A stretch of DNA of 64,000 nucleotides from Holdemania sp. Marseille-P2844 (GTDB taxonomy: Bacteria > Bacillota_I > Bacilli_A > Erysipelotrichales > Erysipelotrichaceae). The notes under the pieces are model-generated. The model was not told the origin of the DNA and did no database searches. It saw only the letters and a program-made list of their open reading frames with translations. The position numbers and the translations under genes are program-made. The stretch's first letter is position 1. Every line of letters begins with the position of its first letter. The stretch spans positions 186,001-250,000 of the forward strand of contig NZ_LT635449.1 in NCBI RefSeq assembly GCF_900120005.1, given 5' to 3'. Shown piece by piece: positions 6,180 to 62,907 of the stretch.

Positions 6180-7913
6180 TTATTCGCCCGCGAACTGACT
6201 GTTATAGAGCTGACTGTAAAAGCTGCCCTGCTTCAATAATTCGTGATGGCTGCCCTGTTCCAGAATCTGACCGTGATTCATCACAAGAATCCGATCGGCC
6301 TGTTCGATCGTCGATAAGCGGTGAGCGACGATGAAGCTTGTGCGGCCCTGCATCATCTGATCGAACGCCGACTGCACCAACAGCTCCGTCCGGGTATCAA
6401 TCGAACTGGTCGCTTCATCTAAAATCAGGATTTGCGGATCGCAAAGCAGCACCCGCGCGATACACAGCAGCTGCTTCTGTCCCTGCGACAACGAAACGGT
6501 TTCATCCAGCAGCGTATCATAGCCCTGCGGCAGCTGATGGATAAAGTAATCAAGATGCGCCTGCCGGGCGGCCTTCTCCACATCCGCAAGCGAAGCGTCA
6601 GGCCGGCCGTAAGCGATGTTCTCACGGATTGTGCCGCGGAAGATCCAGGAGTCCTGCAGCACCATCCCAAAATGGGCGCGCAGCTCATGGCGGCTGAGCG
6701 TGCGGGTGTCCACGCCGTCCAGCCGGATCACCCCGCCGCCAATCTCGTAGAAGCGCATCAACAAGTTGATCAACGTCGTCTTGCCGCAGCCGGTCGGGCC
6801 GACGATCGCAATTTTCTGACCCGGCTTGACCGTGAGATTGAAATCCTCGATCAGCGGCTCGTTTGCCTGATAACGAAACGACACATGCTCCAGCCGCAGC
6901 TCGCCGCGGCCCTGTTTTCCTGACCCCTGATCTGCCTGATCGCTTTCCTGCGGCTGATCAAGCAGATGGAAAACCCGCTCGCAGCTGCTTAAGGAGGCCT
7001 GCAGCTCGGTAACGACGCCGCTGATTTCATTAAACGGCTTGGTATATTGCGAAGCGTAGCTTAAAAACGAAGTCAGCTGACCGACGCTCATGCCGCCGCC
7101 CAGCGCCGTCAGGGCGCCGATGATGCCGACAGCCGCATAGGCCAGATTGTTGACGAACCGCGTGCACGGATTGGTCAGGGAAGAAATGAACTGCACCTGC
7201 GTGCCAACCTGGTTAAGCCGCTGATTGATTTCATCAAAGGCCGCTTCTGAAACTGCCTGCTGATTGTAGGCTGCGACCAGACTCTGCCCATTGACCCGTT
7301 CCTCGGCAAAACCGGACAGCTCGCCCTTAATCCGCGCCTGCTGCTTAAACAAGCGCGAGCTGCGGGAAGCGATGAATGAAGCGACGCCAAAGGACAGCGG
7401 CGTGATGAGCACGACGGCCAGCGTGATTCCCGGATGGATCGAAAGCATGAAGCCCAGCGTGCCGACAATCGTGATCACGCCGGTAAACAGCTGTGTGAAG
7501 CCTTGCAGAAGACCGTCGGAGATCACGTCGATATCGTTGACCAGCGTGTTCATAAAATCTCCCTGCTGCGTTTTATCCAGCGTCGCCAGAGGCAGCGCGT
7601 GAAACTGCGCGAAGCATTGCATGCGCAGATCCCGGATCGTCCGGTAGCAGCAGACATTGGTGCAGCAGGTCATCAACAGCTGAAAGAGCGCGGCCAGAAT
7701 CACAACGGCCGCCAGCGCGGTCAGTGTCTGAGTGACCCGGATAAAATCAACCTGCCCCGCCGCTACGATCGCATCGACCGCCTGACCGATGATCACCGGC
7801 GCGCTCAGCGTCATCGCAACCTGCAGCAGCGCGAAGACCAGCGCCATTGCCAAAAGCAAGCTATAAGGTTTTACATAGCGCAGTAAGCGCCGCAATAAAG
7901 CTGACTGACTCAT
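6180..7913 (-). CDS. Heterodimeric ABC exporter, catalytically complete half (BmrD/TM288-like)
   Basis: A 577-residue half-transporter: a six-helix exporter membrane domain (about 1-310) fused to an ATPase. Walker A is 'GPTGCGKTT', the Q-loop is in 'MVLQDSWIF', the signature is 'LSQGQKQLLCIARVLL' and Walker B is 'ILILDEATSSID' with the catalytic Glu. The signature reads LSQGQ instead of LSGGQ. This is the usual lesion of one subunit in heterodimeric exporters, because it completes the degenerate site formed with the partner's Walker motifs. Its ATG at 7913 overlaps the stop of the partner gene (ATGA). It probably exports drugs or other amphiphiles; the substrate is unknown. Confidence 0.93.
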   Translation of the reverse strand: MSQSALLRRLLRYVKPYSLLLAMALVFALLQVAMTLSAPVIIGQAVDAIVAAGQVDFIRVTQTLTALAAVVILAALFQLLMTCCTNVCCYRTIRDLRMQCFAQFHALPLATLDKTQQGDFMNTLVNDIDVISDGLLQGFTQLFTGVITIVGTLGFMLSIHPGITLAVVLITPLSFGVASFIASRSSRLFKQQARIKGELSGFAEERVNGQSLVAAYNQQAVSEAAFDEINQRLNQVGTQVQFISSLTNPCTRFVNNLAYAAVGIIGALTALGGGMSVGQLTSFLSYASQYTKPFNEISGVVTELQASLSSCERVFHLLDQPQESDQADQGSGKQGRGELRLEHVSFRYQANEPLIEDFNLTVKPGQKIAIVGPTGCGKTTLINLLMRFYEIGGGVIRLDGVDTRTLSRHELRAHFGMVLQDSWIFRGTIRENIAYGRPDASLADVEKAARQAHLDYFIHQLPQGYDTLLDETVSLSQGQKQLLCIARVLLCDPQILILDEATSSIDTRTELLVQSAFDQMMQGRTSFIVAHRLSTIEQADRILVMNHGQILEQGSHHELLKQGSFYSQLYNSQFAGE

Positions 7914-58843: not shown

Positions 58844-58865
58844 AAATACCCCTTTCCGGGCTTAA

Positions 58866-58900
58866 ATAAAAAGCCCTTTTGATTTTGTGCAAAAGGACTT
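58866..58900 (-). terminator. Attenuator terminator of uraA
   Basis: AAGTCCTTTTG (58900-58890) pairs with CAAAAGGGCTT (58881-58871) with one mismatch on the minus strand, then TTTATTT. It lies between the PyrR-like site and the start codon. Confidence 0.82.
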
Positions 58901-58920
58901 TCCCCTTAATGTAGTTCAGC

Positions 58921-58940
58921 CTTGCGATCTCTCTGGATCC
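58921..58940 (-). promoter_or_regulatory. PyrR-binding RNA element
   Basis: The minus-strand transcript contains UCCAGAGAGAUCGCAAG, matching the conserved PyrR-binding loop (UCCAGAGAG...GCAAG). Placed upstream of an intrinsic terminator, it should promote termination when UMP-bound PyrR is present. Confidence 0.82.
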
Positions 58941-58964
58941 GCTTAAAAGCCCTATGCGGTTTTC

Positions 58965-58993
58965 ATTATAACATAACTAAGCGGCGATTTCAT
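58965..58993 (-). promoter_or_regulatory. uraA promoter
   Basis: Minus strand: -35 ATGAAA (58993-58988), 17-nt spacer, extended -10 TGT-TATAAT (58973-58965), about 120 nt before the gene, leaving room for the attenuator. Confidence 0.72.
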
Positions 58994-59156
58994 CCACTTC
59001 CGGTAAAAAGCCTGAAATGAATTTTCTGACATTCCCGAACATCTTTAATTTCAAACTGGATTCAGCGATGCCAAACAAGGGCGGACTAGTCAGAAATCCC
59101 GGCAGAGAGCCTGACCGGCAGTTGATCGTCAGTTTGTCAGAAGGCGAACTTCTGAA

Positions 59157-61742
59157 TCAATAATTTTCCAGCATAGAATAAAACTCGTCGCGACCGTCTT
59201 TTTTCGCCTGCGTTCTGAATTTAGCGATATCCGCCGAATTCAATTCACAGACCACCATCTCGAAATAACGGACTTGCTGATCATCGTAGGCCTTCTGCGC
59301 CAGCGAAAGAACCTGATCGTGCGGAAGATCGTAAATCAGGTTTGACAGAATATCCAGATTCTGATTCTCATACGCCTGATTGGCATATTCTGCCTTTTGT
59401 TCGCTGGTCAAATCATTGCACAAATTCATAAACACATCCGTGCGATGATCGTTAAAGGCTTGATCAACCAGCGCCTTCAGGGTTTCGTTATCAACTTTGG
59501 AATAGAGCCGGTAAAGCACTTCTGTCCGATTGTCGGCATACGCCCGCTCAAGCAGCGTCTTCGCGGTTTCCTTGGAAAGGCCCCAGATAATTCGGTCAAA
59601 CAGCTCATCCTGCTTTTCATCATAAGCCTGGATCGCCAGCTTATCCATCAGCTCGCCAGGCAGATCCCCGTCAAAGACAAACAGATAATCCCGGCAACGC
59701 TGATCGTCGATCACTCGCTGAGCATACGCCGCGACGCTCTCTTGTGGCAAATCATAGAAAGCTTCTTTAAAATATTCGACGCGGTTATCGGCATAGGCCT
59801 TTTCTGCCAAAGCTTTCCGCTGCCTGGAATTCAGCGAACTTGCAATCTCTTCAAAGAATTCAAGACGCTGATCAGCATAAACCCGGTCGGCCCACGCACC
59901 GAGCTGATCGGTTGTCAAATCGCGGATCGTTTCCATAAAATACGCCAACTGGTTATCCGCATAGGCTTTCTCCGCCCATTCAGACCGCTGCGGAGCCGGC
60001 AGGGAAAGCAGCGCGATTTCAAAATCATCAAGCCGCATATCCGCATAAGCCTGCTGCGCCAACGTCTCAATCTGATCCTGCGGCAGCTTCGGTACCAACA
60101 GATCAAACGCATCCTCATATCGACTCTGATAAGCCTGCCGGCTCAAATTGAGAATTTCGGATTCCGGAAGCGCGTCGGCCAGCACCGCAAAATAATCCAT
60201 TTCCTTCGATGCATAGAAGGTGCGGGCCATGTTTACAGCCGCTTCCTCGTTCAGCTTCGCAGCCACGGCTCTGAACTGCGACATTTTCTTTTCCTTATGA
60301 AAGCGGACAGCCAGTTCCTCCGCAGATTCGGTGTAGGGACCTTCGATCGAGGTTAAAAGCGGCGTACGCGAAGCCAGTGAGCTGTTGTTGCGGACTAACC
60401 GCGCATGTTGTTCGGAAACCGCCTGACGGACGGCTTCCATCTGTTCCTCATTGTCCATGACCGCTTTCATGCTTTCGTCAAAGGCGACGCTGATCAGCGA
60501 ATCCTGATACACGCTGCCCTCCTCCGACCGGTCGGCTCCCGCCCAGTTCAGCGTCACGATGTAGCCCTGCGTATAGACGCTGCCGGAAAAATAGAAGGTT
60601 CTCTGGTTTGTCGAGGTCGTGGCCGTCATCACCGGCGCCGCGGCCGGCGTCGGCGTTTTCCAGCTCAACGTAGAACCGCACAGAATACCGCTGGCAAACA
60701 ATACAGCCCCGGCAGCCATCGAGATCAACGCCCGTGCAGTTCCTGACTTTTGTTCATCCATAATTGCACTCAGCCTTTCTTTTAACAAGCTCAAGTTTTC
60801 ATTCAACGTAATTGATACGATGATATCGCCATAGGTTCCCTTATCCTTTAACGTGTGGATCAACGTGTCGCCGTAGCAGCGTTTTTCCCGCGCCGAGAGA
60901 GACCGCAGCACCTGTTCATCGCAGGCCAGCTCACACAGACTTTCCATATGGCGGCCGATCAGGCGAACAACAGGATTAAACCAGTGAATGCAGACCGCCA
61001 GCTGAACCAGCCATTTTGTAAAGATATCTTTGCGCTGATAATGCGTGAGTTCGTGGCGCAGAATCATTTGCATTTCCTCAGGGCCGCAATCCTCCGTAGT
61101 CAGAATGATCATCGGATGAAAGACACCGGGCAGCATCGGCGATACTGCCAGCTTGTTAATCCAGACTGGCAGCTGGCGGCGGATGCCCATTTTCTGGCGA
61201 ACCTCGTCCAGACATTGCCGGGTCTTCGGGCTGGATGGAAAACTGCCGGCTTTAATAAACCGCAGAAATCCTTGATAGCTCGTGATCCGACGAACCATCA
61301 GCACCACGGCAACGCTTAACCACAGCACCCAGGCTGATCGGATCAGATCGTCCAGCCAGGCGGGCTGATCAACCTGGCAGGTTGATCGGGAAGGCTCCGG
61401 TGTTGGAAGGAATCGGATATCCTGAACCGGATCACTCTGGACTTCCTGTTCAGGATGTTTTGTTTGTTGATCCGCAACAGGATTCCTGATGGTTTCCGGC
61501 GTCCTTGCCGCAAGCTGAGCTTGCGGCTGCGGGTTCCAGGTTTCCTCAGAAAACAAAGTACCGACAACCCCGGCTACCGGCGATACCGGAATTAAAAGCC
61601 GCAGAATCACAACCAGCCAGAGTCCGTAGCGAAAACGGAAACTCAAATGATTTTTCAGCAGCTTTTCCAGCAGTACAACGATGCCGGCCATCCATAACGC
61701 GGAAACCGAAACTGAAAGGAAACCGATCATGAAGGTGTTCAT
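59157..61742 (-). CDS. BlaR1-like M56 membrane metallopeptidase with fourteen 28-residue repeats
   Basis: An 861-residue protein. TM helices lie near 4-26, 38-56, 135-152 and 337-357. The M56 peptidase has zinc motif 'RHELTHYQ' (His230-His234) and 'ELACDEQV' (271-278). After the last TM a roughly 100-residue outer region leads into fourteen tandem 28-residue helical repeats (469-861), e.g. 'LPQDQIETLAQQAYADMRLD', consensus LPxxQxxxLAxxAYxDxRxxxF. No penicillin-sensor domain is present. The ATG at 61742 overlaps the blaI-like stop (ATGA). By analogy it senses an outside signal and triggers loss of the repressor. Many shadow frames here are not real. Confidence 0.9.
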   Translation of the reverse strand: MNTFMIGFLSVSVSALWMAGIVVLLEKLLKNHLSFRFRYGLWLVVILRLLIPVSPVAGVVGTLFSEETWNPQPQAQLAARTPETIRNPVADQQTKHPEQEVQSDPVQDIRFLPTPEPSRSTCQVDQPAWLDDLIRSAWVLWLSVAVVLMVRRITSYQGFLRFIKAGSFPSSPKTRQCLDEVRQKMGIRRQLPVWINKLAVSPMLPGVFHPMIILTTEDCGPEEMQMILRHELTHYQRKDIFTKWLVQLAVCIHWFNPVVRLIGRHMESLCELACDEQVLRSLSAREKRCYGDTLIHTLKDKGTYGDIIVSITLNENLSLLKERLSAIMDEQKSGTARALISMAAGAVLFASGILCGSTLSWKTPTPAAAPVMTATTSTNQRTFYFSGSVYTQGYIVTLNWAGADRSEEGSVYQDSLISVAFDESMKAVMDNEEQMEAVRQAVSEQHARLVRNNSSLASRTPLLTSIEGPYTESAEELAVRFHKEKKMSQFRAVAAKLNEEAAVNMARTFYASKEMDYFAVLADALPESEILNLSRQAYQSRYEDAFDLLVPKLPQDQIETLAQQAYADMRLDDFEIALLSLPAPQRSEWAEKAYADNQLAYFMETIRDLTTDQLGAWADRVYADQRLEFFEEIASSLNSRQRKALAEKAYADNRVEYFKEAFYDLPQESVAAYAQRVIDDQRCRDYLFVFDGDLPGELMDKLAIQAYDEKQDELFDRIIWGLSKETAKTLLERAYADNRTEVLYRLYSKVDNETLKALVDQAFNDHRTDVFMNLCNDLTSEQKAEYANQAYENQNLDILSNLIYDLPHDQVLSLAQKAYDDQQVRYFEMVVCELNSADIAKFRTQAKKDGRDEFYSMLENY
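59160..60338 (-). repeat. Coding tandem repeats, 14 units of 84 nt
   Basis: Thirteen units of 28 codons and one of 29 codons fill the 3' end of the M56 gene. The protein units are conserved at position 1 (Leu/Val), 9-10 (Leu/Trp-Ala), 13-14 (Ala-Tyr), 16 (Asp) and 22 (Phe/Leu). DNA identity between units is much lower, so they are old and kept by selection, not recent expansions. The first unit, starting PYTESAEEL, is the most degenerate. Confidence 0.88.
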
Positions 61743-62119
61743 TTCAATTTCTCCTTCCCCTGCTCCCAAAATTTTTCCAGTTCTTCAATGTCTTTGGATT
61801 CCAGGCATTGCTGCCCGAACAGCGACGTCAGCAGCGTACTGACATTTCCGCCAAACACCTGATTCACAAACTGAACCGACTGAGTTTTTAAATATTCTTC
61901 CTCGCTGATGCGCGCAACGTACAGCGCGCCCCGGCCTTCCTTCTGGCTGATCAGCATTCCTTTGTCGATCAATCTGGAGATAAAGGTCCGCACTGTCGTG
62001 CGTTTCCAATCATGGTCAGTTTGTTCTATCTGGTCCAGCAATTCACTGATCGTCATCGTACCCCCATGATCCCAGATCAATCTCATGATTTCCTTTTCAG
62101 AATCAGACATCAGTTCCAT
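61739..62119 (-). CDS. BlaI/MecI/CopY-family repressor
   Basis: A 126-residue winged-helix repressor: 'MELMSDSEKEIMRLIWDHG', 'TMTISELLDQI', recognition 'DWKRTTVRTFISRLIDKGML', and a C-terminal dimerisation region. It is paired with the M56 protein as in BlaI-BlaR1 and MecI-MecR1, where the peptidase triggers repressor cleavage. The ATG at 62119 follows GGGAG. Two inverted repeats in its promoter are probable operators. No beta-lactamase or penicillin-binding protein gene is next to it. Confidence 0.93.
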   Translation of the reverse strand: MELMSDSEKEIMRLIWDHGGTMTISELLDQIEQTDHDWKRTTVRTFISRLIDKGMLISQKEGRGALYVARISEEEYLKTQSVQFVNQVFGGNVSTLLTSLFGQQCLESKDIEELEKFWEQGKEKLK

Positions 62120-62142
62120 GTTCTCTTCTCCCTCCCTTTTTA

Positions 62143-62181
62143 TTACATCTTGTAGTCAATTATCATACTACACTTCGTAGT
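62143..62181 (-). promoter_or_regulatory. Twin operators of the BlaI-like repressor
   Basis: Two palindromes share TAC(T)ACA/TGTAGT text: TACA-TCT-TGTA (62144-62154, extending to GTAGTC) and ACTAC-ACTTC-GTAGT (62167-62181). BlaI/MecI sites have TACA/TGTA cores. They cover the probable -10 (TATGAT or GATAAT on the minus strand). Confidence 0.72.
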
Positions 62182-62358: not shown

Positions 62359-62907
62359 TTAGTTCGATTGCCAGCGTTCCTCAAACCATTCCGGTTTTTT
62401 TAACCGTTGGAAGTCGCCGGATTCAAAAAGCGCATGGAAATGGCATGTCTGCGAAGAAGTTAACGTTTTCAAGCTGATCGTTCTGGTTTTCCAATTTAGA
62501 GATTCAGTTAACCCAAAATGATCCAGAATAGCGATCACGTCTTCCTTTTTCGGATCAAAGTCGGAAGCCTCAAAGTTAAAGTTATAGAAAACCACTCCGC
62601 CTTTTCCCGGATCCGTATAATGGACTAGAAAAAACGTTTCGGGATGTTCTCCGATTTCAAAGTAATCGCCGACGTCCAGCCCTTCCAGCCATGCCTTCTC
62701 CTTGTTGAGCTTCACAGCTTCCGACGGACTTACATTGGTAATAATAAGCATCCGTTGGACTTTTCCAGCTTTGACGCTGAGTTTTATGGAAGATTCCGAC
62801 TGCGTATACCAGTAATAATGGATCGAAGCGCAGCTGACGAGGGACAGAGCGCAAAGAAACATCAAAGTTATCGCGGTTCCCTTTCTCTGCCATTTTCTTT
62901 TTATCAT
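62359..62907 (-). CDS. Unknown lipoprotein
   Basis: A 182-residue protein with a lipoprotein signal ('ITLMFLCALSLVSCAS', lipobox LVSC, Cys near 26), then a mixed beta domain ('VGDYFEIGEHPETFFLVHYT', 'GKGGVVFYNFNF'). I do not recognise the family. It is monocistronic with a strong terminator. It is adjacent to the BlaI/M56 pair, which could make it a regulated partner, but there is no direct evidence. Confidence 0.78.
   Translation of the reverse strand: MIKRKWQRKGTAITLMFLCALSLVSCASIHYYWYTQSESSIKLSVKAGKVQRMLIITNVSPSEAVKLNKEKAWLEGLDVGDYFEIGEHPETFFLVHYTDPGKGGVVFYNFNFEASDFDPKKEDVIAILDHFGLTESLNWKTRTISLKTLTSSQTCHFHALFESGDFQRLKKPEWFEERWQSN

Follow-up and report, generated by a model that had tools for sequence, protein, structure and literature searches.

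A BlaR1-type receptor core with a predicted extracellular array of helical repeats, which behaves as an exchangeable sensor cassette in gut Firmicutes

BlaR1 is known for the sensing of beta-lactams. In a stretch of 64,000 nucleotides from Holdemania sp. Marseille-P2844 (contig NZ_LT635449.1, positions 186,001 to 250,000; the whole stretch is called the window below), a BlaI-type repressor is encoded together with a BlaR1-like membrane metallopeptidase of family M56, the C-terminal part of which consists of helical repeats. This raises the question of what such a receptor could respond to, and by which route a signal would reach its repressor. The locus was examined by computation with respect to gene coupling, catalytic residues, fold, topology, conservation, operators and the exchange of sensors. 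Features are compiled in Table 1; unless stated otherwise, residue numbers are those of the M56 protein.

Table 1. Features of the blaI-M56 operon, with positions counted from the first letter of the window.
Feature	Position	Strand	Basis or remarks
blaI, BlaI/MecI/CopY-type repressor, 126 aa	61739..62119	-	Pfam Penicillinase_R, 106.9 bits (cut-off 22.6)
M56 receptor gene, 861 aa	59157..61742	-	Pfam Peptidase_M56, 174.3 bits (cut-off 31)
Likely -35, TTGCAA	62188..62193	-	read from the sequence; conserved in alignment
Likely -10, TAGTAT	62165-62170	-	spacer of 17 bp from the -35; conserved in alignment
Putative operator O1, ACTACGAAGTGTAGTA	62166..62181	-	lies within the spacer between -35 and -10 and overlaps the -10; G002 and G003 conserve it, and G106 has a counterpart
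Putative operator O2, ACTACAAGATGTAATA	62141..62156	-	25 bp from O1, downstream of the -10
Residues 1-358: TM1-TM2, TM3, cytoplasmic zinc protease, TM4	60669..61742	-	hydrophobicity, AlphaFold2 model, BlaR1 alignment
HELTH zinc motif, residues 230-234	61041..61055	-	collinear with BlaR1
Small conserved extracellular domain (predicted), residues 381-468	60339..60602	-	beta hairpin 382-403, helices, strand 462-467
Array of fourteen 28-residue units, residues 469-861, predicted alpha-solenoid	59160..60338	-	repeat analysis, AlphaFold2

Both open reading frames were read together with their overlap, an ATGA in which the start codon of the M56 gene (ORF start 61742) meets the stop codon of blaI, and both Pfam matches lie far above their cut-offs; the coupling of a BlaI-type repressor to an M56 protein, proposed in a preliminary description made from the letters alone, is thereby substantiated. 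The Penicillinase_R score places the repressor in the BlaI/MecI/CopY family. The repressor contains a Leu-Phe dipeptide close to the part of BlaI in which cleavage takes place (residues about 99-103). The pairing of a BlaI-type repressor with an M56 receptor in one operon is shared with BlaR1/MecR1 and BlaI/MecI, but no beta-lactamase or PBP2a gene adjoins the window pair. Upstream of blaI, a conserved predicted lipoprotein of 182 residues without a Pfam match is encoded in all three genus members (62359-62907, minus strand), and a terminator-like hairpin lies between its gene and blaI. Downstream of the operon, the leader of a gene for a uracil/xanthine-type permease (58844-59156, minus strand) is strongly conserved in the three species and resembles PyrR-type attenuators; a search of it against Rfam gave no family at threshold.

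Assignment of the receptor to the BlaR1-type M56 peptidases follows from the Peptidase_M56 score, the HExxH and ExxxD residues, and an arrangement of transmembrane helices and protease like that of BlaR1. The residues His201, Glu202, His205, Asp210, Glu242, Asp246, Tyr261 and Arg294, named in the cryo-EM paper on S. aureus BlaR1 (PMC9834060), have counterparts in His230, Glu231, His234, Asp239, Glu271, Asp275, Tyr290 and Arg323, at a constant offset of 29. From three sequences AlphaFold2 already gave a confident array, but no resolved M56 part; from an alignment of 54 sequences it yielded a model with the M56 part resolved and a mean pLDDT of 80.7. Residues 4-321 of this model superimpose on BlaR1 (8ext_A) with Z 20.4 and 3.6 A over 245 residues.

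Four hydrophobic segments were found (6-24, 43-61, 132-150 and 338-356), and the distribution of lysine and arginine would place the loops 25-42 and 151-337 inside and residues 357-861 outside. The topology of BlaR1 is N-out, C-out (PMC9834060), and the same is predicted here; four transmembrane helices, the HExxH and ExxxD zinc site and the catalytic D, Y and R are likewise common to both. The intact HExxH and the four helices noted earlier were thus recovered. An array on the cytoplasmic side, acting on BlaI or another intracellular partner, would be in keeping with the frequent use of solenoids as intracellular scaffolds and with a weak likeness of the array to the intracellular MgtE N domain, but it was rejected as very improbable because the four helices, a clear positive-inside pattern and homology to a solved N-out, C-out receptor predict that everything after residue 357, including the array, lies outside.

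A genuine BlaR1/MecR1 beta-lactam receptor with an unusual sensor would likewise possess M56 and BlaI domains, and NCBIfam blaR1_generic does match the M56 part. This match, however, has 121.9 bits where 400 are required, and it covers residues 10-344 only; scans with Pfam and NCBIfam revealed no penicillin-binding family in the C-terminal region, as the preliminary description had supposed. Sensing of beta-lactams was rejected on these grounds and is regarded as extremely improbable. Where BlaR1 and MecR1 carry a penicillin-binding sensor, the window protein has a small domain followed by fourteen helical units.

The small domain (residues 381-468), which was absent from the preliminary description, is set between TM4 and the array and is separate and strongly conserved; its linker to TM4 is poorly predicted in the model. 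As to the array, the fourteen units with one exception in length that had been proposed were reproduced: the lag-28 BLOSUM autocorrelation is 0.99, the highest value among 500 shuffles being -0.32, and one extra residue stands between units 8 and 9. The units share a mean identity of 23%, which declines slowly with distance; no longer super-repeat is evident, and an origin by clear block duplication was rejected. AlphaFold2 predicts a regular alpha-solenoid, with pLDDT values of 82-98 in blocks of ten, and together with the predicted topology this favours the outer alpha-solenoid of the earlier reading.

Searches of the array with profile HMMs gave no described sensor family at curated cut-offs. 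No Pfam model covered it at cut-off in the window protein, and in eight relatives only Peptidase_M56 exceeded its cut-off, the array yielding just sub-threshold matches at E 0.1. Assignment to MgtE_N (PF03448) was rejected (18.6 bits against a cut-off of 25.9; hhalign probability 68%): this helical superhelix has a similar hydrophobic spacing, but as a domain it is short and lies on the cytoplasmic side of a magnesium channel. LRV, HEAT/ARM and PUM-type alpha-solenoids in the PDB also have stacked short helices, but they fit with a high rmsd, at Z values as for unrelated helical repeats, and without a sequence match; no Pfam repeat model of the LRV, HEAT, ARM or TPR type matched. The best structural neighbour was 1lrv (9.2 A over 218 residues), its Z of 11.3 being uninformative for helical repeats, and the neighbours as a whole are generic helical repeats which carry no functional information.

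Some indications may nevertheless be drawn from composition. Acidity is common in extracellular and secreted proteins. All arrays that were scored are acidic, with a mean net charge of -0.09 per residue, compared with +0.01 for the protease domain; a cationic ligand would fit with this. Unit positions 5, 6, 21, 23 and 24 are conserved between species yet differ among units, and are for this reason candidates for unit-specific contacts.

The operon is present, with fourteen units, in two congeners, G003 and G002, at 91% and 72% identity, respectively, and with total lengths that agree to within one residue; the small domain has an identity of 100% in G003 and of 84% in G002. For the array, a dN/dS of 0.13 was obtained against G003, the only congener used because dS against G002 was saturated for several segments. 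The array is under purifying selection, and since each unit best matches its own counterpart across species, it has remained stable within the genus. Outside the genus, a profile of the small domain and the first units gave a strong match in only one other genome, G106, among 245 genomes of the window's family. The window's own genome contains seven M56 genes, and the six others are without the repeat; two of these paralogues have a C-terminal M23 peptidase-like domain (L041:4179-5903, plus strand, 88.4 bits; L037:1964-4699, minus strand, 26.9 bits, just below the Pfam cut-off).

A predicted autoregulatory promoter with two operators is common to the M56-BlaI pairs of the genus and of their clostridial relatives. 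Dyads of the type TACA-Nx-TGTA lie over the putative promoter at two sites, conserved in three genomes, as would befit a member of the BlaI/MecI/CopY family and as in BlaR1/MecR1 and BlaI/MecI systems with their palindromic operators; the genus pattern for the two sites is ACTACRANRTGTARTA. A loose pattern, [CT][AT]AC[AG]-N-[AT]GT, counted without a shuffle control, is present ahead of blaI at 31 of the 36 distinct loci from Clostridia, often as two sites about 25-27 bp apart in the same promoter positions as in the genus. When the 16-mer operator was searched with up to three mismatches, the two own sites were returned with a scatter below the reversed-pattern control, and the paired-site pattern was found in the three genus genomes (G000, G002, G003) at the own promoter only, plus one unshared place in G002; such scans are insensitive to weak or degenerate single sites elsewhere. 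A look for TACA/TGTA operators elsewhere in the genome, as the preliminary description had suggested, gave no second shared pair: the own operon carries the sole paired operator common to the three genomes and is for this reason the only supported BlaI target.

A genome collection was scanned for relatives with an M56-based alignment, which yielded 80 loci, mostly from Lachnospiraceae and Oscillospiraceae. The repeat of the window protein recurs four or more times, mostly four to six, in 56 of the 79 M56 ORFs at these loci (shuffled null: mean 0.35 units, maximum 2), a proportion which is no prevalence, since the ORFs were chosen by similarity to the query; the survey of M56 proteins for this repeat, which the preliminary description had suggested, was thus rewarded. 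In an even sample, the array was found in 11 of 250 genomes (about 4%) in each of two clostridial families, with the centre genome counted. By reading, the arrays of Hungatella effluvii and of G798 have about six or seven units, and the fourteen of the window's genus are the longest seen, the range being 4 to 14. In five-unit relatives a region resembling the small domain precedes the repeats; in the four-unit relatives L146, L118 and L161 it is missing and the array begins almost directly after TM4.

Inspection of 37 non-redundant relatives from Clostridia showed blaI directly upstream of the M56 gene in nearly every case, mostly with an overlap at the M56 start. Pairs such as those of Acetatifactor muris (L105), Pseudoflavonifractor sp. 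(L118) and Clostridium sp. (L102) share with the window the type of M56 core, the repeat, the blaI overlap and the promoter with paired operators, but have 4-7 units, and many possess extra C-terminal or inserted domains. The downstream genes vary from locus to locus, and by inspection no common partner was seen. None of the viral contigs encodes an array, and several proteins which the repeat profile matched weakly, among them an ABC transporter and a solute-binding protein, looked unrelated on reading. In a tree of M56 cores, which has several long branches, the window's genus falls with an array-bearing clade and not with the paralogues of its own genome; nine changes in array presence or absence are required, far fewer than with shuffled labels. 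The design is not confined to the M56 protein of the window, which belongs, as a long form, to a broader family in Clostridia that apparently has no name. The literature searched, with many subscription papers outside its scope, contained no description of an M56 sensor of the array type. The operon with its array is real, ancient and selected, and belongs to a family of sensors on the BlaR1 core which has apparently not been described.

Two further observations concern single loci. The blaI and M56-array proteins at L087:5355-7605 (in G106, placed in the window's family) and at L104 (a Clostridia assembly) are nearly identical, which suggests recent transfer or assembly contamination. At L195:997-1848 (minus strand), L231:1048-1845 (plus strand) and L232:790-1755 (plus strand), ORFs starting inside the M56 C-terminus contain TM4 and an array without the protease domain; these may be decayed genes or stand-alone anchored arrays.

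The most interesting result, which goes beyond the preliminary interpretation, is the exchange of sensors. Up to TM4, several M56 proteins of Clostridia are near-identical to ones that bear the array; beyond TM4 the two kinds are unrelated. At the DNA level, 104 of 308 pairs with cores more than 80% identical show no substantial nucleotide match between their sensors; these pairs are non-independent, since a few loci recur, and a missing nucleotide match can also mean divergence. L152, for example, still shares a protein-level domain with the array-bearing L165. The best case is a single syntenic locus in two strains: between L136 and L140 the upstream flanks match, the cores are 96.9% identical and the downstream flanks 90% identical over 98%, and the sensor-coding nucleotides (7044-7857 and 7044-7809, respectively) have no match; the sensor of L136 is a Toastrack-like domain (DUF4097, 23.4 bits, cut-off 22.9) and that of L140 a four-unit array. 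L167 and L172 match in their cores and in short downstream stretches. Some of the contigs with exchanges are metagenome assemblies. In L160, with a core near those of five-unit relatives, a domain of beta-helix-type appearance (TGTFNGNGFEIAGLTM), without a Pfam match, replaces the array after about residue 345.

Since near-identical cores carry different sensors, the array is argued to be the input module, and in these comparisons of sequences it behaves like a cassette, an extracellular sensor that can be exchanged on receptors of the BlaR1 type. A more far-reaching proposal is put forward tentatively, as one which may well prove too broad: the BlaI-M56 operons of gut Firmicutes could be a modular platform, on which whole sensor cassettes, among them arrays of 4-14 units and Toastrack-like domains, are swapped through recombination at a single locus, directly behind TM4, and the array could represent a new class of extracellular receptor modules, with ligands that vary and are perhaps antagonistic, for example bacteriocins or peptides of the host.

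The array could instead be a scaffold or tether which binds the envelope, through a cell-wall polymer or a partner protein, with the small domain as the true sensor. The small domain is indeed the most conserved extracellular part and has its counterpart before the repeats of five-unit relatives, and variation of the unit number from 4 to 14 would be poorly tolerated by a precise ligand site. On the other hand, the four-unit relatives manage without the small domain, and in the exchange pairs everything from just after TM4 is swapped; we consider the tether rather unlikely.

The reading which we favour, and hold to be probable, is that of a one-step membrane receptor of the BlaR1/MecR1 kind, in which the small extracellular domain and the solenoid control the M56 protease. 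The small domain would serve as a coupling domain, and the two would together form the extracellular sensor of a zinc protease facing the cytoplasm. Contact of a ligand with the solenoid would lead to a change, transmitted through the coupling domain and TM4, in the protease; the latter, by homology to BlaR1 and from the anatomy of the protein, would cleave BlaI, which would then leave O1 and O2, so that the own operon would be derepressed. The solenoid would be one of several interchangeable sensor cassettes on this core in gut Firmicutes. The best guess for the ligand would be a peptide or protein of the cell surface, possibly a cationic one in view of the acidic arrays.

A different output was also considered. 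The protease could act on proteins other than BlaI, or the useful product could be the array protein, for example as a shed or anchored binding protein, with the BlaI circuit setting its level only. The restriction of the shared paired operator to the own operon would agree with this, as would the ORFs with TM4 and array which lack the M56 domain, and cleavage of the sensor domain by signal peptidase has been described for BlaR1 (PMC9834060). However, the protein has every catalytic residue that regulated proteolysis requires, the ORFs in question may be decayed genes, and degenerate single sites would escape the operator scan; such an output is judged unlikely.

With a one-step receptor as the preferred reading, a BlaR1 signalling core here carries a different, apparently undescribed extracellular sensor, which has spread and changed its length in gut bacteria. 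Near-identical cores with different sensors amount to natural chimeras, with which the input part and the output part are directly testable. If ligands were found, a large set of unannotated receptors of the gut microbiota would become interpretable.
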